From Gammaproteobacteria bacterium (GTDB lineage: Bacteria > Pseudomonadota > Gammaproteobacteria > Pseudomonadales > Azotimanducaceae): DNA of 38,137 nucleotides. Below the pieces are notes generated by a model, which was not told where the DNA came from, ran no database searches, and saw only the letters and a program-made list of their open reading frames with translations. Location of the stretch: assembly GCA_026707905.1 (NCBI GenBank), contig JAPOVY010000100.1:1-38137 (forward strand), in the 5' to 3' direction. This document shows, piece by piece, positions 25,653 to 35,973 of this stretch (position 1 is its first letter; the number at the start of each line of letters is the position of its first letter). Position numbers and translations under genes: made by a program.

Positions 25653-28600
25653 CTACTGCAGGCTGATTCGGAAACGAGCATAGTAAACACGTCCTGTTGG
25701 GTCGTGCGTGTAGTAGTCGTACGCGCCATCTACATTCACCCATGGGGGGTCCTTGTTTAAGAGATTCTTGATTCCTAATGCAAGTTCCGAACCGAGAAAC
25801 TCCGGTAAATCGACGCTGTATTGCGCGTCAACGGTGGTCATACCATCGATCGTTTCCCAATAACCGATGTATGACGCGAGGAAATCGCTCTGCGGTCCTT
25901 CGTCCTGGTAGTCTGAAACCGAGAATGAGCTAATGTTCATCGCATGACGGTTCCGAGTCCAGTTCAACGAGTTTCGTATTCGATACTCAGGCATTGACCG
26001 CCCGATCGAATTGGTGATGTTCCTCTTTCCGAGACCGTTAGTAACCGTCCCGTCCGCTAGGGTTATGGTGTAGTCCGTTGCATAGTTCACTTCACTGGCG
26101 ATTTCGAACCTTCCTAGATCACCTGAATCCCACGCATAACGGATCGAAGCGTCGAACCCGGTAACCGTGAGACTGGGCGCATTAAAGTACGAAGCGATCG
26201 TGTGGACAAGATATCCGTCCTCACGACGGATGACCTTGTCTGGGATACCTTCACCGATGGAGAAAACCGAAGGTACCCCATCACCGTCATGGTCATAGAC
26301 GCCACACAGTGGCGGCGCGTTGATATCGTGATTGATTCCTGAGGGGCAGCGAAGGCTGTTATCGAGATCGACCAGACTTTGGTGCCTTTCACGCGTGATC
26401 AGGTTTTCGTATTCGTATCGATAGTGATCGAGCGATACCTGAAGTCCTGAGATTGTTTCGGATTCCCAACTCACGCCGATGTTAAACGCATCAGCAACTT
26501 CTGGTTCGAGCTCCGGATTACCATCACCGAGCGAGCTTCGATAGGCTAGTGAAGGCGCATTTGAAAAAGGATCACGCGTGTTTTCGAATAGCGTCAGACT
26601 ACCGCCACTTTGTAGTAACGATGCTATTTTGTAGGAAGTGCCCCAAGAGCTACGAATCAATATCGACGGCGTGGCAGTGATGAGCGCACTCACTTTCGGA
26701 TCAAAGGTGTCTGATCCACCAACACTGAACTTCTCATACCGGCCAGCTACACGCAATTCAATTCTCTCGTGCACAGCGGCTGAAGTTTCGGCGAAAAGCG
26801 CCCACGAACTTACGCTACTTGTCCAATCTGAATTGCCGGTCAAGAAGGAGAGGTTGAATCTATTAGAGTTTCTATCGAAATCGAAATCGGCAATTTCCTT
26901 TCGATATTGCACACCAATCGCAATGCCCAATGCGCCGTGTCCTAAATCCACACCTTCACCGGTTAGCATGAGATCCATTACTGTCTGCTCTAGCTCTGCG
27001 TCCCTCGTGCGCGTGCCGTGCAACCAGGTTAGTAACGAAGCGGGGTTTTGATATTTCCTTGCTGCTTCTATGACCGAGAGTTCTGGATTTGCAGCCCACG
27101 GATTGGCGTCATTCGTGTCCCACGCCTCTCCCGTGACGGGATCGTAGACGCTGGTTTGAAAGCTGTTGTAGTAGTAGCAACCACCGAAACCGAGATTTCC
27201 CGAACCAGCCGTATCCAAGATGGGATTGCAGTTAGGCCCACCGAGACCTCGAAATGCAAGGTCCATGCGGTCGGAACGCACGTCGGTCGGCAGAACCTGA
27301 GTGCCTTCGAATCTAGATCGGCTGAGGTTCGTAGTTAGAAACCACTCGCGGGCCTTGATCAAGATCTCCGATGTGGCTCCAAATTCGAATCGAGACCTAT
27401 ACGAAGTCGTGACTGAGTCCGTATCTACGGGTCGTGCACGCGTTGTAGAGCTTGCGGTTCCACCGAGTAGGCGTTGCAATGCTTGGTACTCGACTGGTTC
27501 ATATCCACGTCGCGCAGCATCTAGCTGCAAGCCGAAGTGGTCTCGTTGAATGATCCTATAGGTGACATCAGGATACAGCGAATTGCCACGATACGATTCG
27601 TGGTCAGCAATGCTCCAGCTAGCCGACAACGTCGTCGTCGGCGAAGGGTTATAGCTTCCTTCTACGTGGAGCTTGTAGTTCTGCGTTGGTCGAATGATGT
27701 GAAAGAAACTCGAGTAGTCGTACACGCAGATGTTCGAAAAGCGTGGATGTATTCCGAGTGTTCCCATTCCGCCGTCAGCCGCAGCAACTTTCTCACACTC
27801 GAGATCTGGCAAGCTACCTGAGAATGACGAGGTATCGGGTCCGCCCTCGGGATGCCAATAGTTGGAATTAACTGGCGTTCCGGAACCGCCTTGATGCAAA
27901 GGGACGTATCTTCCCGGTTGCCCGAAACTCGAGAGCCCGGATCGCCCGTATCGCTCGAAACGGTCTGCGATCCGAAGTCCCTCACGATCCAGATAGCTCG
28001 CCGCGACAAGAAACTCGCCACTGTCAAGTGAGCGTCCATATTTGGTTGAGAGCAGTGTGTCTCGTTGTGTTCCCGTTTCGTGATCTGAACTGAACTCAAG
28101 TTCGGTTTCCCAGCCATGGAAGCCTGAGGACGTGAGAAAGTTGACGACGCCAGCGACAGCATCCGAACCGTACAGCGCGGAACTGCCGTCGCGAAGTACC
28201 TCTACTCGATCCAGAACGTTGTTTGGAAGGAGCGACCTGATATTCACGTAGCTACTTCCCGTCGCGTCAAAGTTGTCCCGTAGGAGTCGTCGACCGTTGA
28301 GCAGTATCAATGTTGCGCCGCTACCTAAGTTACGAAGATTGACGCTCGCTTGACCTTCGCTGTTGTCGCCGCCGACCCAATTCGACGCGGAATTACCCAA
28401 TGATGCGGTATTGGCGGTCATCTGTGCGATGAATTCCTGAGCGTCGGTAGCGCCGACGGCATCCATCGTGTCCTTATCAAGAATGGTCAATGGTGAATGG
28501 GAATGACTCGTCGACGATTTGAGATAGGATCCAGTAACGATCAATTCTTCGACATGCTCATAGCTAGATTCGTCCTCTCGTTCCTCAATCTCATTCGCGT

Positions 28601-28658
28601 ACGCGCCGGTCACTAGACTGGCTACTATTACGACAACCGAGAATCGGCTACACATCAT
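25653..28658 (-). CDS. TonB-dependent outer-membrane receptor
   Basis: This outer-membrane active transporter imports large or scarce ligands using TonB energy. With the start I chose (ATG at 28658, one of two adjacent ATGs) it has 1001 residues: a signal peptide ending TGAYA, a TonB-box-like region EELIVTGS, and a plug domain. The plug includes PLTILDKDTMDAVGATDAQEF, split here as PLTILDKDT and AVGATDAQEF, then LILLNGRRLL and VEVLRDGSSALYGSDAVAGV. A long beta-barrel rich in aromatic strands follows. The frame remains open to an ATG at 28808, which would put about 50 residues before the signal peptide. Adjacent TIM-barrel isomerase and Gfo/Idh genes suggest a carbohydrate or polyol ligand. 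Confidence 0.9.
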   Translation of the reverse strand: MMCSRFSVVVIVASLVTGAYANEIEEREDESSYEHVEELIVTGSYLKSSTSHSHSPLTILDKDTMDAVGATDAQEFIAQMTANTASLGNSASNWVGGDNSEGQASVNLRNLGSGATLILLNGRRLLRDNFDATGSSYVNIRSLLPNNVLDRVEVLRDGSSALYGSDAVAGVVNFLTSSGFHGWETELEFSSDHETGTQRDTLLSTKYGRSLDSGEFLVAASYLDREGLRIADRFERYGRSGLSSFGQPGRYVPLHQGGSGTPVNSNYWHPEGGPDTSSFSGSLPDLECEKVAAADGGMGTLGIHPRFSNICVYDYSSFFHIIRPTQNYKLHVEGSYNPSPTTTLSASWSIADHESYRGNSLYPDVTYRIIQRDHFGLQLDAARRGYEPVEYQALQRLLGGTASSTTRARPVDTDSVTTSYRSRFEFGATSEILIKAREWFLTTNLSRSRFEGTQVLPTDVRSDRMDLAFRGLGGPNCNPILDTAGSGNLGFGGCYYYNSFQTSVYDPVTGEAWDTNDANPWAANPELSVIEAARKYQNPASLLTWLHGTRTRDAELEQTVMDLMLTGEGVDLGHGALGIAIGVQYRKEIADFDFDRNSNRFNLSFLTGNSDWTSSVSSWALFAETSAAVHERIELRVAGRYEKFSVGGSDTFDPKVSALITATPSILIRSSWGTSYKIASLLQSGGSLTLFENTRDPFSNAPSLAYRSSLGDGNPELEPEVADAFNIGVSWESETISGLQVSLDHYRYEYENLITRERHQSLVDLDNSLRCPSGINHDINAPPLCGVYDHDGDGVPSVFSIGEGIPDKVIRREDGYLVHTIASYFNAPSLTVTGFDASIRYAWDSGDLGRFEIASEVNYATDYTITLADGTVTNGLGKRNITNSIGRSMPEYRIRNSLNWTRNRHAMNISSFSVSDYQDEGPQSDFLASYIGYWETIDGMTTVDAQYSVDLPEFLGSELALGIKNLLNKDPPWVNVDGAYDYYTHDPTGRVYYARFRISLQ

Positions 28659-28913
28659 GAGAGAGACTCGACGTATTGAATCAAGTTTCAAATCCAATGT
28701 GAGCCGCGCTAACTTCACGATTCGAAGCTTGTGCATTACCGCGCCAACATTGTGCACTGATCGATGAAGCGAGGCGGTACTCATATCGGTAATGCTTCGA
28801 TTTGACATTGACGGGAAATGTTCAAAATAAAATCGCTATTGAATCAGATTAGCGTCAAATGTCTATCGAAATATACGGATATGGCGCAAGGAATGTGAGG
28901 TCAATAAGGCGAC

Positions 28914-30077
28914 ATGGCAAAGTTACGAATGGGGATGATCGGCGGTGGGGAACGATCGTTTATAGGCGCCGTACATCGTATCGCGGCGGAACTTGATGGC
29001 CAGATTGAGCTTGTTGGCGGTGCTTTTTCTAGTGATCCGGATCGATCGAGACGATCAGGTGAATCACTATATGGATTGACGCCCGAACGGTGCTACGGCT
29101 CTTTCGACGAACTACTAACGAGTGAAACGTCGCGAGTAGCGGATGAGAGGATGCACTTCGTCGTCGTCGCGACGCCAAATAACGTTCACTATGCCCACGC
29201 GAAAGCCGCATTAGAGGCAGGTTTCCATGTGATGTCCGACAAACCCATGACTTATAGTCTGGACGAGGCACTTGATTTACGTGATACCGTGGCGCGGACG
29301 AAGAAAGTATTTGGGTTGACACATAACTACACCGGCTATCCAATGATCAAGGAAGCTCGACATCTAGTCCGAGGTGGTGCTTTTGGAAACGTGCGTCGAG
29401 TCAACATAGAGTACATTCAGGGCTGGTTAGCCACAGCTGAGGAAACCGGCGGAAATAAGCAAGCAGAATGGCGAACAGACCCGGCTCGTTCTGGTGCCGC
29501 GGGATGTATTGGTGATATAGGTACCCATGGTGAGAATCTTGCAGAATACGTGACGGGGCTTCGGATCGAATCGCTCTGTGCAGATCTGACGACGTTCGTT
29601 CCGGGACGTCGCCTTGACGACGATGGCAATGTACTGTTGCGGTTCGAAGGTGGTGCGAAAGGTGTCCTCTCCGCAAGTCAAATCGCCGTTGGCGTCGAGA
29701 ACGGTTTGACGTTACGAATATACGGCGAGATCGGAGGATTGGAATGGTCGCAGATGGAACCGAATTCGTTGATCGTCCGTTGGCCGGATCGCCCTTTTGA
29801 GGTTCGCCGAACGGGTGCTGCGGGCGTGTCGCCGCCGTCAATCGAAGCGAGTCGGATACCGGCAGGCCACCCTGAAGGCTTCTTAGAAGCGTTTGCGCTT
29901 CTCTATCGGAATTTCGCATCAGCCGTTCACGATGCGGAGTTGGGTAAGGAAATAAACTCAGAGGATTACGATTTCCCAAGTGTGAACGACGGTGTACGAG
30001 GAATGCAATTTATCGAAACCGTGGTAGCGAGTTCGAATCAAGGCGCGACGTGGCTTGAATTTCCTAAAGCCAGCTAG
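28914..30077 (+). CDS. Gfo/Idh/MocA family NAD(P)-dependent oxidoreductase
   Basis: The 387 residues show an N-terminal Rossmann fold, [17 protein letters not shown] (about 6-22), the loop [17 protein letters not shown] (about 84-100), and the catalytic DKPM (about 109-112, K110). In the C-terminal substrate domain, [13 protein letters not shown] supplies the conserved Asp and His. Such enzymes oxidise or reduce hydroxyl groups of sugars, inositols and amino sugars. The extended GGGxxSFIG nucleotide loop and the AEWRTDP insert match a subgroup common beside TIM-barrel isomerases. It is divergent from the TonB-dependent receptor, so both probably share the intergenic control region. AAGG a few bases before the ATG may serve as ribosome-binding site. 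Confidence 0.86.
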
Positions 30078-30245
30078 TTAGTATCCCACGCGTCAAAATT
30101 GAAGAGCGGAGTTGTCATTCAAGAGTGAAGCCTCGATTCAACCACTTATCGCATGAGCTAGTAGTGGCACTAAATCGCCTGTGTTCAAGGATAGCTGTCC
30201 GATGACCGATGTACTCATCGCATACGAGCGTCGGAAGTACCAAGT

Positions 30246-30257
30246 CCGAATATTCGG
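30246..30257. repeat. 12-base perfect palindrome upstream of the LRR-protease gene
   Basis: CCGAATATTCGG reads the same on both strands and ends nine bases before the GTG start of the large LRR-protease gene. Its length and location would suit an operator for a dimeric regulator, but a single 12-base palindrome can arise by chance. Confidence 0.3.
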
Positions 30258-30266
30258 TTACCGATA

Positions 30267-33200
30267 GTGAGTGTTTCACTGGTGTACGAGTTTTTCCACG
30301 CGGTCAGACGGATATCTACGGTCGGTCTATGCGTATTAACAGCGATACTTTTTTCCACGTGTGGTTGGAACGTATCCGCTCAAAGTTCGGGTGTCCAACA
30401 AGATCGAGCAGCGTTAGTCGCGCTATATGAGGCAACGGATGGTGCGAATTGGTCAGTCAACACGAACTGGTTATCTGACGCACCAATCGGAGATTGGTAC
30501 GGCGTAAGCACGGACTCGGCAGGTCGCGTTGTGAGTCTGTACCTCAAAGGACGACCGGGGAGTTTTGGTCGAGAGTCAACGTCTCACGGACTTTCGGGAC
30601 GATTGCCGTCTGAGTTAGGCGACCTTGAGTACCTTACCACTCTGATCTTAGGAATCAACAGCATCAGCGGGGGAATTCCGAAGGAACTCGGCAATCTGAC
30701 TCGGTTGACTCAGCTAAACCTAGAAGACAATAGTCTGGATGGGGATCTCCCGGTTGAAATCAGTCAGCTCCAGAGATTAACGACTCTCCGCCTCGCGAAC
30801 AACCAGCTAACGGGGCGAATTCCTCCTGAAATCGGAAGTCTCGACAGGCTTACATCTCTCGATTTAAGTGGTAATAGGTTTACAGGGCGAATCCCAGCTG
30901 AACTAGGTCAGTTAACCCAGTTAACCATACTCTTGCTCGCCGAGAACTTCCTATTCGGGGACATACCGGATGAGCTCGGACTCCTAACGAAACTGCGACG
31001 CCTTGAAATTGACCGAAATAGCCTGTCGGGATCAATTCCCGATTGGATCGGTGATCTCGAAGACTTGACGTACCTGTCTGCGTGGGACAACAACCTAAAT
31101 GGCGAAGTTCCAGCGAGCATCGGTAACCTGAGCGAATTGACTGAGCTGGATCTTGCTTGGAACTTCATCACCGGTTCGCTGCCCAGCGAGATCGGAAAAC
31201 TTGAGAAACTAGAGTTTCTTGATGTTAGTCGAAACGAGCTTAGTGGTCGGATTAATCCGCAACTCACGAAACTCTCAAACCTCGCATTTCTAAATCTCAG
31301 CGACAACGATTTGGTCGGACCAGTAATTTCGGGATTACGGAACATGCCAAATCTACAAATTCTGTATCTCCGTAATAACAATCTTTCAGGGCCAGTTCCA
31401 ACTCGATTTGTAGACGCACCGAATATCCTGCTCTTCAGCATCAGCGGTAATCAAGTCTGTATTCCAGGTACACACAGTTTCGTCTTTTGGTTAGAGAGCG
31501 TGCTAATCCACGACATATATTCGTTGACATTCTGCAATGCAACAGATCGGACGATATTAGAGAGGTTTTTCGAGGACACGGATGGCGACAGTTGGACGGA
31601 AGCAATCGGTTGGGGGGACGCAGACGTAGCGTTGGAGCGGTGGTACGGCATCGAAACAGACTTGCTAGGTAGAGTCGTTTCCATGGATCTTGGCAGCAAT
31701 GGATTGGTAGGAAAGCTACCGTTGGATTTAGGGTACCTCTCACAACTCAGGAGCTTGAATCTACAGGATAACCGACTAGAAGGTCGCTTACCGCTTTCAT
31801 TGCGTCGAACCGGATTACGCGCATTTCAATTTACGAATACAGAACTGTGCGTACCGTTAGAACTTGAATTTAAGTCTTGGTTAGACGAATCAGTCGAATA
31901 TGAAGGGACAGGTCAGGCGTGTGACCCGCTAACCGAGCGCGACGTCATGACTATGTTTTACGAAGAGACGGAAGGCAATTCTTGGTCCGAAGCGTCGAAC
32001 TGGCTCTCCGATGAGCCCCTCGATGAATGGCATGGTGTAACTGTAGACGAAGACGGTCAGGTGACGTCGATAGAAATCGCGGGAAACAATCTAACGGGCA
32101 CCATTCCACTTGAGCTTGCGCAACTGTCTAGGCTTCAGACGCTCAATCTCCAATTCAATGCGTTAAGTGGTTCGATACCGTCCGAACTAGGTGAGTTAAC
32201 CCATTTAACGTCAATCAATCTCGGGTTTAACGGTCTTCACGGGTCTATTCCCGATGAACTTGGTAATCTCACGAACCTTACTCATCTCAACCTTTCATAT
32301 AACCGTTTGTCCGGTGCGATTCCACCCGAATTAGGTAATCTTCAGAATCTCGGAACCTTAGAGCTTTCTGGGAATATCCTCGTAGGGACCATTCCCCCGG
32401 AAATTTCGAACCTCTCAAACCTTGAGATTCTCTCCCTCGGACAAAACCAGCTTCAAGGTCGAATTCCTGCTGAACTAGGTGAACTACAAAATCTAATTGC
32501 CCTTCGTGTCCAGGTCAACGGCTTAAGCGGAGCAATTCCGATGGAGTTAGGTAATCTCACGGAACTAGCAAGTTTATGGTTGAGCAACAACGATTTCACA
32601 GGTGAGGTCCCGATGCAGATCGGTTCACTTACTAATCTGCGGTCATTAACCCTGGATTTCAATCGACTTAGTGGGGAGATCCCTGAAGCGTTAGGAAACT
32701 TAAGTCAGTTGCAGCGTGTTAGGCTCGGTTACAACAGATTCGAAGGCGAAATCCCTAATGAGTTTGGCAACTTAACACAGATGAGATCACTTTCGGTGGC
32801 AGGAAATCGACTGTCGGGAGAGATTCCTAGTGAACTCGGTCATCTTGACGAGATCGAGGAGCTGTACCTTCAATATAACGAATTGTCAGGTGAAATCCCT
32901 TCCGAACTCGGTGATTTGACCAGCCTTCAAATACTCGAGTTAAATGACAATGACCTGTCTGGTCAATTACCAAACGATCTCGGTAACTTGACGTCGCTTG
33001 AGAGTCTCTATCTACATGAGAACGACTTCACAGGTTCGATACCGCCGGAATTCGGCGGACTCACGCAACTTAGGAATTTCACCCTGAGCGGAAACAGAGC
33101 TTTATCTGGTCCAATACCTATCGAACTAACAGCACTCTCGCGGATCGAGGTGTTTCTGACGGTAGACACCGATATTTGTCTTCCTGCGGACACAGCTTTT

Positions 33201-34712
33201 GCAGAGTGGTTGATTCGCGTCTATCAGCGCAGGATTAGCAGTTGCGAGTCTCGTGGACCGCTTCTCGCCTTCTTAACTCAACCGGTGCAGTCTCATGAGT
33301 TCCCTGTACCGTTGGTTGCCAGCGAAAGAGCGTTATTACGCGTATTCCCCAATAATTCGGATGCCGCGAATTTGTCAATCCCGGACGTTCGTGCGCGTTT
33401 CTATCTTGATGACCAGGAAATTCATTCAGTGGATATTTCTTCGAGAGTGCTAGCTACGTCCACCGCAAATCCAGGAAATCTGGAAAGTTCAGCTAACGTC
33501 GAGATTCCTGGGTCAGTGATGCGCTCGGGCTTGGAGCTCGTGATCGAAACCGATTCCGTCGCGGATGCCAATTCCAATGCTCAAACAATGAGCGAGACGC
33601 GACTACCAATCGAAGTACATGAACTACCTGACTTCGAGTTGACGCTAATACCGTTCGTTGAGGAACACTCAACTGACCATTCAATAGTCGATTTGGTCAA
33701 TGCGATGGCGGCGAACCCGTACGAACATGAACTGTTTGAAGCGACGCGTACCTTGCTACCCATCGCTAATCTGAACGTCACGGCTCACGAACCCGTCGTT
33801 TCTTCGAGCGTGGACGCGGTCGCGCTACTCGTCGAAACCTCAGTAATTCGGGCGATGGAAGGTGGAACAGGGTATTACATGGGCATGAAGTCTGAAATCG
33901 CAGGTCCGGTATTGGGTGTCGCTTATATTCGTGGGCGTGACAGTTTCTCTAGACCGCTCTCCGATACGATCGCACATGAATTAGGGCACAATCTCAGTCT
34001 AAGGCACGCGCCTTGCGGTGGTCCCGCCGGGGTCGACGGTTCATTCCCATACGAAGATGGTTCTGTAGGGACATGGGGGTATGACTTCAGGGGTAGTGGG
34101 TCAGTGGTTCAACCTTCCAGACCTGATCTAATGTCCTATTGCGACCCGAGCTGGATTAGTGACTATCACTTTTCTAACGCCTTTCGTTATCGATTATTTC
34201 TAGCGCACGATGAGGAGCAAACAATCTCTGCAGCTAGACGATCATTGCTAGTCTGGGGTGGACAACACCCAAGCGGTGAGATCGTGCTAAATCCGTCTTT
34301 TCTTGTTCACGCACCTACCAGACTTCCAGATACTCGCGGTGAATTTGAGCTTAATGGTCTTGATTCCAGAGGTGAACTATTGTTCTCTGTGAACTTCGAC
34401 ATGCAAGTCGTCGCTGATAGCGAGAGGCACAAGAGTTTTGCCTTCGTGATTCCGCTCGAATCAGTTTGGGAACGTGACCTACATGCAGTTGCACTAAATG
34501 GACCGGATGGAACGACGGCGATCGATGTAGATGGTGGCGCATCGATGTCGCTAATACGTAATCCAATTACACGTCAGATTAGAGGCATTCTTAGTACGCC
34601 AAGGGACGCTCCCACTGAGCGAGTTGAAGATATCGTCGAACGCGCCTCGGCGCGAGGTTTGGAGGTTCTGTTTAGCCGCGGCTCATCCGACGCAGCTATC
34701 TCGAATCGGTAG
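30267..34712 (+). CDS. Secreted leucine-rich-repeat protein with C-terminal metzincin-like zinc protease domain
   Basis: The 1481-residue protein begins with a secretion signal (about 14-38, ending NVSAQ). It has three LRR modules, each with an N-cap of the type ATDGANW...NWL...WYGV and a C-cap with a cysteine pair (C398/C423, C528/C552, C971/C993). The modules have about 12, 3 and 15 repeats of the plant-like form L-x-x-N-x-L-x-G-x-I-P. A beta-rich segment (about 996-1120) leads to a protease domain with HELGHNLSLRH (H1237, E1238, H1241, H1247) and LMSYC (M1289), the metzincin zinc site and Met-turn. It is probably a secreted protein-degrading or surface-interaction factor. The start is GTG at 30267; a GTG at 30282 is possible. 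No clear ribosome-binding site is seen. Confidence 0.88.
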   Translation: MSVSLVYEFFHAVRRISTVGLCVLTAILFSTCGWNVSAQSSGVQQDRAALVALYEATDGANWSVNTNWLSDAPIGDWYGVSTDSAGRVVSLYLKGRPGSFGRESTSHGLSGRLPSELGDLEYLTTLILGINSISGGIPKELGNLTRLTQLNLEDNSLDGDLPVEISQLQRLTTLRLANNQLTGRIPPEIGSLDRLTSLDLSGNRFTGRIPAELGQLTQLTILLLAENFLFGDIPDELGLLTKLRRLEIDRNSLSGSIPDWIGDLEDLTYLSAWDNNLNGEVPASIGNLSELTELDLAWNFITGSLPSEIGKLEKLEFLDVSRNELSGRINPQLTKLSNLAFLNLSDNDLVGPVISGLRNMPNLQILYLRNNNLSGPVPTRFVDAPNILLFSISGNQVCIPGTHSFVFWLESVLIHDIYSLTFCNATDRTILERFFEDTDGDSWTEAIGWGDADVALERWYGIETDLLGRVVSMDLGSNGLVGKLPLDLGYLSQLRSLNLQDNRLEGRLPLSLRRTGLRAFQFTNTELCVPLELEFKSWLDESVEYEGTGQACDPLTERDVMTMFYEETEGNSWSEASNWLSDEPLDEWHGVTVDEDGQVTSIEIAGNNLTGTIPLELAQLSRLQTLNLQFNALSGSIPSELGELTHLTSINLGFNGLHGSIPDELGNLTNLTHLNLSYNRLSGAIPPELGNLQNLGTLELSGNILVGTIPPEISNLSNLEILSLGQNQLQGRIPAELGELQNLIALRVQVNGLSGAIPMELGNLTELASLWLSNNDFTGEVPMQIGSLTNLRSLTLDFNRLSGEIPEALGNLSQLQRVRLGYNRFEGEIPNEFGNLTQMRSLSVAGNRLSGEIPSELGHLDEIEELYLQYNELSGEIPSELGDLTSLQILELNDNDLSGQLPNDLGNLTSLESLYLHENDFTGSIPPEFGGLTQLRNFTLSGNRALSGPIPIELTALSRIEVFLTVDTDICLPADTAFAEWLIRVYQRRISSCESRGPLLAFLTQPVQSHEFPVPLVASERALLRVFPNNSDAANLSIPDVRARFYLDDQEIHSVDISSRVLATSTANPGNLESSANVEIPGSVMRSGLELVIETDSVADANSNAQTMSETRLPIEVHELPDFELTLIPFVEEHSTDHSIVDLVNAMAANPYEHELFEATRTLLPIANLNVTAHEPVVSSSVDAVALLVETSVIRAMEGGTGYYMGMKSEIAGPVLGVAYIRGRDSFSRPLSDTIAHELGHNLSLRHAPCGGPAGVDGSFPYEDGSVGTWGYDFRGSGSVVQPSRPDLMSYCDPSWISDYHFSNAFRYRLFLAHDEEQTISAARRSLLVWGGQHPSGEIVLNPSFLVHAPTRLPDTRGEFELNGLDSRGELLFSVNFDMQVVADSERHKSFAFVIPLESVWERDLHAVALNGPDGTTAIDVDGGASMSLIRNPITRQIRGILSTPRDAPTERVEDIVERASARGLEVLFSRGSSDAAISNR

Positions 34713-34917
34713 AGCACGACGTCGAGGAAGTACGAACCTCACAGACCGGCTAGTGCTAAAGAGCACATCAATTAGCTGCTGCAAGACGGTCCGACCATGC
34801 GCTCTTAAAAACGCACCAAATACGATGAGCACTCGGGCTAGCGATATTCTGCGATATCGTGGGATGAACATACGCGCAAACCGATAATTTCGAGCTATCA
34901 ATAAAGGGCAGCTTGGC

Positions 34918-35973
34918 ATGAAGACACTTCGAGGTCCAGCGATTTTTCTTGCGCAGTTTATGGCTGACGAGGAACCGTTCGACAATATTGAATCAATGGC
35001 GACTTGGGCTAGTAATCTTGGTTTCAAAGGGATTCAAGTACCGATCGGAAATCCAAGTTTTATTGATGTTGCCAGAGCAGCGGAAAGCAAGGACTATTGC
35101 GATGAGCTCCGTGGTAAAGTGGCAGAACACGGAGTTGAGATTACGGAGCTATCAACACACTTGGAGGGTCAGCTCGTAGCAGTTCATCCGGTGTATGACG
35201 AGCTTTTTGATGGTTTTGCCCCTGAGGCAATGCGAAAGAACCCTAAAGCGCGAACGGAATGGGCGATCAATCAAGTCAAACTTGCTGCTAAAGCGAGTCA
35301 AAACCTAGGCTTAACAGCACATGTCACGTTCTCAGGTGCGTTCCTATGGCCGATGGTCTATCCTTGGCCGCAGCGTCCGTCGGGGTTGGTTGACGCTGGA
35401 TTCGAGGAAATTGCAAAGCGTTGGCGTCCAATATTGGACGTATTCGAAGAGTGCGGTGTCGATTGTTGTTATGAGATACACCCAGGCGAGGACCTACACG
35501 ACGGTGTCACGTTCGAGCGTTTCCTTGTTGAAGTCGACGATCACCCGCGTGCGAACATCCTTTACGACCCAAGTCACTTTGTTTTGCAGCAGCTTGACTA
35601 TCTGGCGTTCATTGATATTTACCACGAGCGCATAAAGATGTTCCATGTAAAAGACGCTGAATTCAATGCATCTGGTAAGCAAGGCGTCTATGGTGGCTAT
35701 CAAGATTGGGTGGATCGCGCAGGACGTTTTCGATCGTTAGGTGACGGTCAGGTGGACTTCAAGTCGATTTTCTCAAAGTTCGCGGCGTATGACTTTGACG
35801 GTTGGGCAGTGCTCGAGTGGGAGTGCTGCTTGAAGCATCAAGAAGACGGCGCTCGTGAAGGGGCCGAATTCATAAACGAACACATCATCCGAGTCACCGA
35901 GAAAGCGTTCGATGACTTCGCTTCGTCTGGCACAGACGAGAACGCTAATCGTCGCGTCCTAGGTCTCGGCTAA
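34918..35973 (+). CDS. Sugar phosphate isomerase/epimerase (xylose-isomerase-like TIM barrel)
   Basis: The 351-residue protein is a larger member of the same superfamily as the gene at 24786 but not a close copy. Expected metal-site strands are visible: LGFKGIQVPI, ITELSTHLEG, CCYEIHPGED (the conserved Glu), ILYDPSHF (Asp and His), MFHVKDAEF and WAVLEWECC. The long loop after GAFLWPMVYPWP and the VYGGYQDWVDRAGRFRS insert match the subgroup found with Gfo/Idh/MocA dehydrogenases in sugar or inositol catabolism. It is cytoplasmic. An AAAGGG about ten bases before the ATG is the likely ribosome-binding site. The specific substrate is unknown. Confidence 0.85.
   Translation: MKTLRGPAIFLAQFMADEEPFDNIESMATWASNLGFKGIQVPIGNPSFIDVARAAESKDYCDELRGKVAEHGVEITELSTHLEGQLVAVHPVYDELFDGFAPEAMRKNPKARTEWAINQVKLAAKASQNLGLTAHVTFSGAFLWPMVYPWPQRPSGLVDAGFEEIAKRWRPILDVFEECGVDCCYEIHPGEDLHDGVTFERFLVEVDDHPRANILYDPSHFVLQQLDYLAFIDIYHERIKMFHVKDAEFNASGKQGVYGGYQDWVDRAGRFRSLGDGQVDFKSIFSKFAAYDFDGWAVLEWECCLKHQEDGAREGAEFINEHIIRVTEKAFDDFASSGTDENANRRVLGLG

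Follow-up and report, generated by a model that had tools for sequence, protein, structure and literature searches.

The window analysed here is a stretch of 38,137 nucleotides (GenBank assembly GCA_026707905.1, contig JAPOVY010000100.1, positions 1 to 38,137 of the forward strand) from a gammaproteobacterium of the Azotimanducaceae. The gene under study lies at 30267..34712 on the forward strand, where an open reading frame (ORF) with a GTG start, supported by an ORF check and by Pfam, encodes a protein of 1481 residues that combines leucine-rich repeats (LRRs) with a metzincin-like peptidase core; all of its features are on the same strand. The protein begins with a putative Sec signal peptide (residues 1-38; 30267..30380), which, from reading of the sequence, would be cut before QSS. 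It is followed by LRR module 1 (residues 45-423; 30399..31535), with a Cys-free N-cap, 10 strict repeats, and a cap containing Cys398 and Cys423; by the short LRR module 2 (residues 424-552; 31536..31922), with 2 strict repeats and a Cys528/Cys552 cap; and by LRR module 3 (residues 553-993; 31923..33245), with 14 strict repeats and a Cys971/Cys993 cap, the borders of the three modules being drawn by eye. A beta-rich joint domain (33267..33620), conserved across the family alignment A3 and with strands in a low-confidence model, leads from the LRRs to the protease and may be immunoglobulin (Ig)-like. The M66-like, metzincin-like peptidase domain (33621..34211), assigned from Pfam, the family alignment, a structure model, and Foldseek, contains the zinc motif HELGHNLSLRH (residues 1237-1247; 33975..34007), with Ser where Gly is usual, and the Met-turn LMSYC (residues 1288-1292; 34128..34142). 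A beta-rich C-terminal domain, which is conserved in the family, completes the protein (34239..34709).

Ten cysteines are present. Cys22 and Cys32 fall within the signal region; the others are 398/423, 528/552, 971/993, and 1250/1292, which makes one pair per LRR cap and one pair around the active site. The cap pairs may form disulphides, and the position of Cys1250/Cys1292 on either side of the active site suggests a disulphide there as well. The residues Q-S just past the putative cleavage point are conserved in both orthologs (those of COS4_bin_15 and G017), and no lipobox was seen on reading the N-terminus of the window protein, which is predicted to be exported.

In the ORF, Pfam matches were found to LRR_1 (1.7e-72), LRR_14, LRR_4, and LRR_8. 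The repeats are of the 24-residue plant-specific type, LxxLxLxxNxLxGxIPxxLGxLxx, with three Cys-pair C-caps. The strict pattern finds 26 of them, split 10, 2, and 14 over the modules, and about 29 are counted when degenerate ones, judged by eye, are included; this agrees with the original prediction, an earlier model reading of the letters alone, which had given about 30. A looser regular expression returned 24 repeats in the window ORF and at most one in 20 shuffles of each of the N-terminal parts of the three family members in this genome, so that the LRR count is not due to chance. Three separately capped modules had also been proposed, and three are indeed present, each closed by a Cys pair; they are not equal, however, since the second is small.

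The zinc motif and the Met-turn were both found at the residues where the original prediction had placed them. The combination that defines metzincins, HExxHxxxxxH with a downstream Met-turn, is present in the window protein and near invariant in 56 aligned family members: H1237 is kept in 53 rows, E1238 in 52, H1241 in 54, and H1247 in 52, along with M1289 (54), C1250 (53), and C1292 (54). The Pfam model Peptidase_M66 (PF10462) matches residues 1228-1274 at 25.6 bits, above its gathering cut-off of 20.6, and it is found at E<=0.01 in 53 of the 56 members; the cut-off itself was passed by three of eight relatives in one set (four below it, one unlisted) and by all five in another. Reprolysin models match the window protein too, all under their Pfam cut-offs. 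A first structure model reached a predicted local distance difference test (pLDDT) score of 55; a trimmed model reached a pLDDT of 65 with a predicted template modelling (TM) score of 0.69 and was confident up to the zinc helix. When this partial model was compared with the PDB by Foldseek, the titles of 12 matches at E<=0.001 read as metzincin or ADAM-type proteins, among them snake venom metalloproteinases, ADAM-type chains, an archaemetzincin, and the Bacteroides fragilis toxin. Likewise, a profile of the family searched against the PDB found adamalysins best, at E 0.004.

Several observations weigh against the assignment. The metzincin consensus is HExxHxxGxxH, with the signature Gly at position 8, and this residue is Ser in the window protein. 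Among the 56 members, Ser is found at that position in 24 and Gly in 14, a mix that gives HExGHNxxLxH as the family motif. The M66 match covers approximately 50 of the 306 profile positions, and a reprolysin-type protein of this genome also scores above the cut-off of that profile (21.3 bits); therefore, the M66 label discriminates poorly. Against the StcE chain 3ujz the family profile scored E 1.1 and 10.8 bits, with the zinc region alone aligned. Past the zinc helix the block pLDDT falls to 24-48, making the model unreliable from about the third His on, and the Foldseek matches have TM scores of 0.38-0.47 on the query length with root-mean-square deviations of up to 10 Å. The metzincin-like protease of the original prediction is thus borne out by the Pfam match, the fold matches, and the conserved zinc ligands, Met-turn, and cysteines, and is held back by the Ser in place of the signature Gly and by TM scores below 0.5. 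Overall, it is very probable from the sequence and the model that the core is a metzincin-type peptidase. It is named metzincin-like here rather than plain metzincin since the signature Gly is Ser, and the window protein itself would be catalytic.

Two groups of known peptidases are the closest to this core. With M66, the family of StcE and its relatives, it shares the Pfam match above cut-off around the zinc motif, and an M66-annotated plasmid protein of Thermus thermophilus ('M66 family metalloprotease') is 30% identical over 344 columns; it differs from M66 in the small part of the profile that is matched and in the LRR modules placed in front. The adamalysin or ADAM-type metzincins (M12B) provide the best fold matches (1iag at E 4e-5, and ADAM-8) as well as the best profile matches in the PDB, but with reprolysin models under cut-off, TM scores below 0.5, and different surrounding domains.

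The anatomy of the family was described from 84 core-bearing ORFs, all from genomes that had been fetched because of a match. The common core consists of the joint domain, the M66-like metzincin-like domain, and the C-terminal beta domain, and its N-terminal partner may be an LRR array, a set of Ig-like repeats, Big_2 domains, or hardly anything. At least three LRRs are present in 50 of the 84 ORFs (shuffled N-termini give at most two), and in 42 of these 50 a Cys cap lies immediately ahead of the joint domain. Three caps are found in 24 of the 50 LRR members. The spacing from the first cap to the second is 100-180 residues in 22 of the 24, and that from the second to the third ranges from 275 to 467, at 10-12 modulo 24 in 22 of 22 cases (the two L097 rows left out; L091 and L092, both among the 22, share 97% identity at the ends of contigs and perhaps represent a single locus). 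It follows that the length of the last module changes in steps of complete 24-residue repeats. The middle module and a stretch of about 30 residues from the last cap to the joint domain are near-constant across the three-cap members, and module 2 of the window protein aligns to many Gemmatimonadota members at approximately 30-50% identity. The first module varies in length too and is short in some members.

One explanation of this architecture gives the LRR region the role of a pro-region or scaffold, with the protease processing its own chain or partner adhesins. Metzincins are frequently synthesised as zymogens, which favours such a role; however, in some siblings the core follows Ig-like repeats, and in others, of about 610 residues, it has a very short N-terminus. 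The core can thus exist without LRRs, and this explanation is considered quite improbable. In the window genome itself, two more copies of the core lie in tandem on contig C77 (L004). Their cores are homologous to that of the window protein at 28-29% identity and carry the HExGHN zinc motif, but Ig-like repeats and lipobox-like starts replace the LRRs.

These siblings also bear on a second explanation, in which the LRRs are mainly an anchor or adhesin that attaches the protein to the envelope of its own cell, to a biofilm, or to the surface of a host, and the protease cuts whatever is near with no choice of substrate by the LRRs. Lipobox-like N-termini, which would suit an anchored protein, were recognised by eye in both C77 paralogs and, in two genomes, in 13 of 24 ORFs by a loose lipobox regular expression that had no shuffle control; as stated above, none was seen in the window protein. 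Copies that have lost the zinc motif fit a binding role apart from catalysis as well. HExxHxxxxxH is present in 79 of the 84 ORFs. Of the five that lack it, four belong to SB0662 and retain their LRRs (L089 4543-14512; L083 863-3778), and three of these four lie in tandem; three more full-length members without the motif were found in G079. On the other hand, the whole-repeat variation and the siblings without LRRs fit an anchor and a substrate reader alike.

An unusual member was noted in G029 (L035 1703-9517), where a protein of 2604 residues has Spondin_N, Calx-beta, fn3, cadherin, FG-GAP, and TSP_3 domains ahead of the homologous core and a zinc motif that reads QEIGH.

The original prediction had implied that the LRR-plus-protease layout is unique, and this did not hold, since the same layout recurs in Gemmatimonadota. 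In a sample of 298 Gemmatimonadota genomes, the catalytic region was matched at E<=1e-20 in 128, and the best match reached E<=1e-150 in 42; at most five candidates per genome were scored among the matches listed in this search, so it gives no copy numbers. Copies were counted in full, fragments included, in seven genomes of the phylum, with 11-47 matches each: 43, 16, and 19 in the metagenome-assembled genomes (MAGs) SB0662_bin_23, SB0661_bin_2, and jk18x1bzbins.83 of Gemmatimonadetes (E<=1e-8), and 18, 11, 47, and 31 in four further genomes. In the genomes with 18 and 11 matches, all of them sit on one contig each, of 4.47 Mb and 4.09 Mb respectively; therefore, the expansion of the family is not an artefact of assembly or binning. 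Among 58 genomes in a sample of relatives, 10 have a match at E<=1e-5, the window's own genome counted, and of 369 Gammaproteobacteria one has a match at E<=1e-30, the window's own again, with up to four candidates scored per genome among the matches listed. Viral contigs (IMG/VR) yielded nothing beyond three distant small metzincin-like proteins, which have HELGHNFGL motifs (L127 3446-4231, L128 1-582, and L129 3500-4396). The part of the original prediction that knew of no characterised protein with this layout still stands, in that none was found in open-licence PMC titles and abstract starts, among the matches listed. A study of demosponge MAGs reports that sponge-associated MAGs are enriched in leucine-rich and other eukaryote-like repeat proteins (PMC8163846); no link from the genomes studied here to that work could be made. 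The MAGs with the isolate names COS4, SB0661, SB0662, and jk18x1bz may come from sponges, so that an association with a host is possible. Overall, the protein looks like part of a large, modular, and expanded, apparently undescribed family of probably extracellular proteases.

To place the window protein within the family, a tree of the 56 rows was rooted at its midpoint, the Ig-type copies being left out. The window protein and those of COS4_bin_15 and G017 form a clade with support of 100/100. This clade lies inside the 36-row side of a branch supported at 100/94, the rest of which consists of 32 Gemmatimonadota genes and one gene of G009; support for the closer position of the clade is weak. 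The G009 member is on a contig of 7.4 kb and shares 88% identity in the catalytic part with a gene of the Gemmatimonadetes genome SB0661; this identity indicates that the contig is probably mis-binned or records a very recent transfer. Mis-binning of the window contig was ruled out by the synteny of the gene and its flanks on 565-kb and 158-kb contigs of congeners. The gene probably came into the genus from Gemmatimonadota or from a common donor, with the direction of transfer taken from the distribution.

By Pfam, the left flank is a GFO/IDH/MocA oxidoreductase gene (28914..30077, forward strand) and the right flank encodes a xylose-isomerase-like TIM barrel protein (34918..35973, forward strand). 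In five congeners without the gene at this site, the two flanks are uninterrupted, 31-79 bp apart by alignment ends; the window gene splits this operon. A TonB-dependent receptor gene lies further to the left at 25653..28808 on the reverse strand. No RNA family at gathering score and no tRNA was found in the window, and promoter and terminator scans of 29900-35100 gave results no better than those of shuffles. In G010 the gene is represented by broken copies alone, a C-terminal fragment adjoining the isomerase gene and a copy on another contig with in-frame stops. At L032 2-1218 of the same genome, a truncated member beside the isomerase gene lies near a zinc-ribbon transposase-like ORF, which we take to be TnpB-like.

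This neighbourhood raises a nutritional explanation, in which the protease would free peptides or glycans, the TonB-dependent receptor import them, and the MocA and isomerase genes process them. By their Pfam matches, both flanking genes encode sugar-type enzymes, and receptor matches of at least 76% identity are limited to four congeners that have the window-type gene or its remains. However, these four may be one clade and thus record a single event, the G010 receptor is on a different contig from the remains of the gene, and G009, with its divergent LRR member, has a partial receptor match of 47%. Furthermore, the MocA and isomerase pair is present without the gene in five congeners, and the receptor frame of G016 contains one TGA. 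Nutrient scavenging is therefore judged unlikely.

The orthologs of the window gene in COS4_bin_15 and G017 were compared with it and with the flanking genes, at synonymous divergence (dS) near saturation. Identity among the three LRR genes is 66-71%, as against 84-98% for four flanking genes. The ratio of non-synonymous to synonymous rates (omega) of the LRR gene is 0.10 and 0.11 in two pairs, the third pair being saturated and not computable. The window gene is under purifying selection, and an omega of about 0.1 rules out that the window copy is a decaying gene. No gain or loss of repeats was found in the LRR arrays of these three close orthologs, which show no length change. In 500 of 500 bootstraps the gene groups the window closest to G017, whereas for each of the four flanking genes the window is closest to COS4_bin_15. 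This suggests exchange of alleles between species, with differences in rate as an alternative when three sequences are compared.

The pattern of change does not all favour a reader of targets. Where computable, the omega of the flanking genes is lower (0.007-0.072), so that weaker constraint on the LRR gene is also possible. Variable positions in the ortholog LRRs amount to 75 of 130 on the concave face versus 143 of 208 at other exposed positions (p=0.047), and a concave face that is slightly less variable fits an anchor. In paralogs, 11 hand-picked and partly overlapping pairs gave a pooled p=0.0013 for the concave face, with 5 up, 5 down, and 1 equal; among 11 sister pairs, 4 yielded no repeat alignment, and 6 of the others are from Gemmatimonadota, with 5 of these 6 up (pooled p=0.086). 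Since the orthologs trend in the opposite direction and the paralog pairs are mixed, the data do not establish that the binding face is diversifying, and an arms race at this face is not proposed. Taking these points together with the lipobox-like starts and the zinc-less copies, the anchor or adhesin explanation is possible but doubtful, though it is the strongest of the alternatives.

In the reading preferred here, which may be given a probability of about 0.53 from the sequence features, the LRRs would bind or select the extracellular target of the metzincin-like protease; that the LRRs target the protease at all, as the original prediction had also suggested, is rather likely on the same grounds. 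A proposed mechanism can be potentially described as follows. The window protein would be exported and act as an extracellular zinc endopeptidase, and its three Cys-capped LRR modules would hold or select a protein target, possibly a glycoprotein. A change by whole repeats in the last module would alter the reach and the contact surface and leave the enzyme undisturbed. The gene would have arrived from Gemmatimonadota or a common donor and inserted between two genes of sugar-type metabolism, where purifying selection has since maintained it.

Fusion of an LRR array to another functional part is also seen in the LRR type III effectors XopAC, XopAE, and XopL, whose NCBIfam models match the LRR region of the window protein. 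The scores remain far below the cut-offs (259 of 600 bits for XopAE, 221 of 450 for XopAC, and 108 of 500 for XopL), and, unlike these effectors, the window protein has a probable Sec signal peptide and a protease. The IpaH-type LRR ligases offer a further analogy.

Some other proteins of the window genome were noted. On contig C21, a reverse-strand ORF of 1276 residues (L154 3976-7806) has an animal-like mix of SRCR (1.8e-30), fn3, Calx-beta, cadherin-like, and LRR domains, and it is the sole other open frame of this genome with LRR_8 at E<=1e-5. Three further giant proteins have matches to reprolysin-type peptidase and FG-GAP models: L155 1-4962 (reverse strand, cut at the edge of the segment retrieved), L156 396-5804 (forward strand), and L157 3246-8714 (reverse strand).

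The object of interest is therefore the family as a whole, a modular and expanded set of LRR proteases that apparently moves horizontally. It suggests that Gemmatimonadota have a large class of probably extracellular proteins, apparently not described before, members of which have reached another phylum. If the LRRs choose the target, the family would supply tens of natural pairings of core and reader, and with them a direct test of repeat number and repeat surface against specificity. More tentatively, some Gemmatimonadota genomes might each keep a set of tens of secreted metzincin-like proteases guided by LRRs, with readers varying by whole repeats, zinc-less copies possibly serving as pure binders, and single members spread between phyla and exchanged between species. 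If this is true, such Gemmatimonadota would possess an extracellular, bacterial equivalent of a receptor repertoire, whose output is proteolysis.

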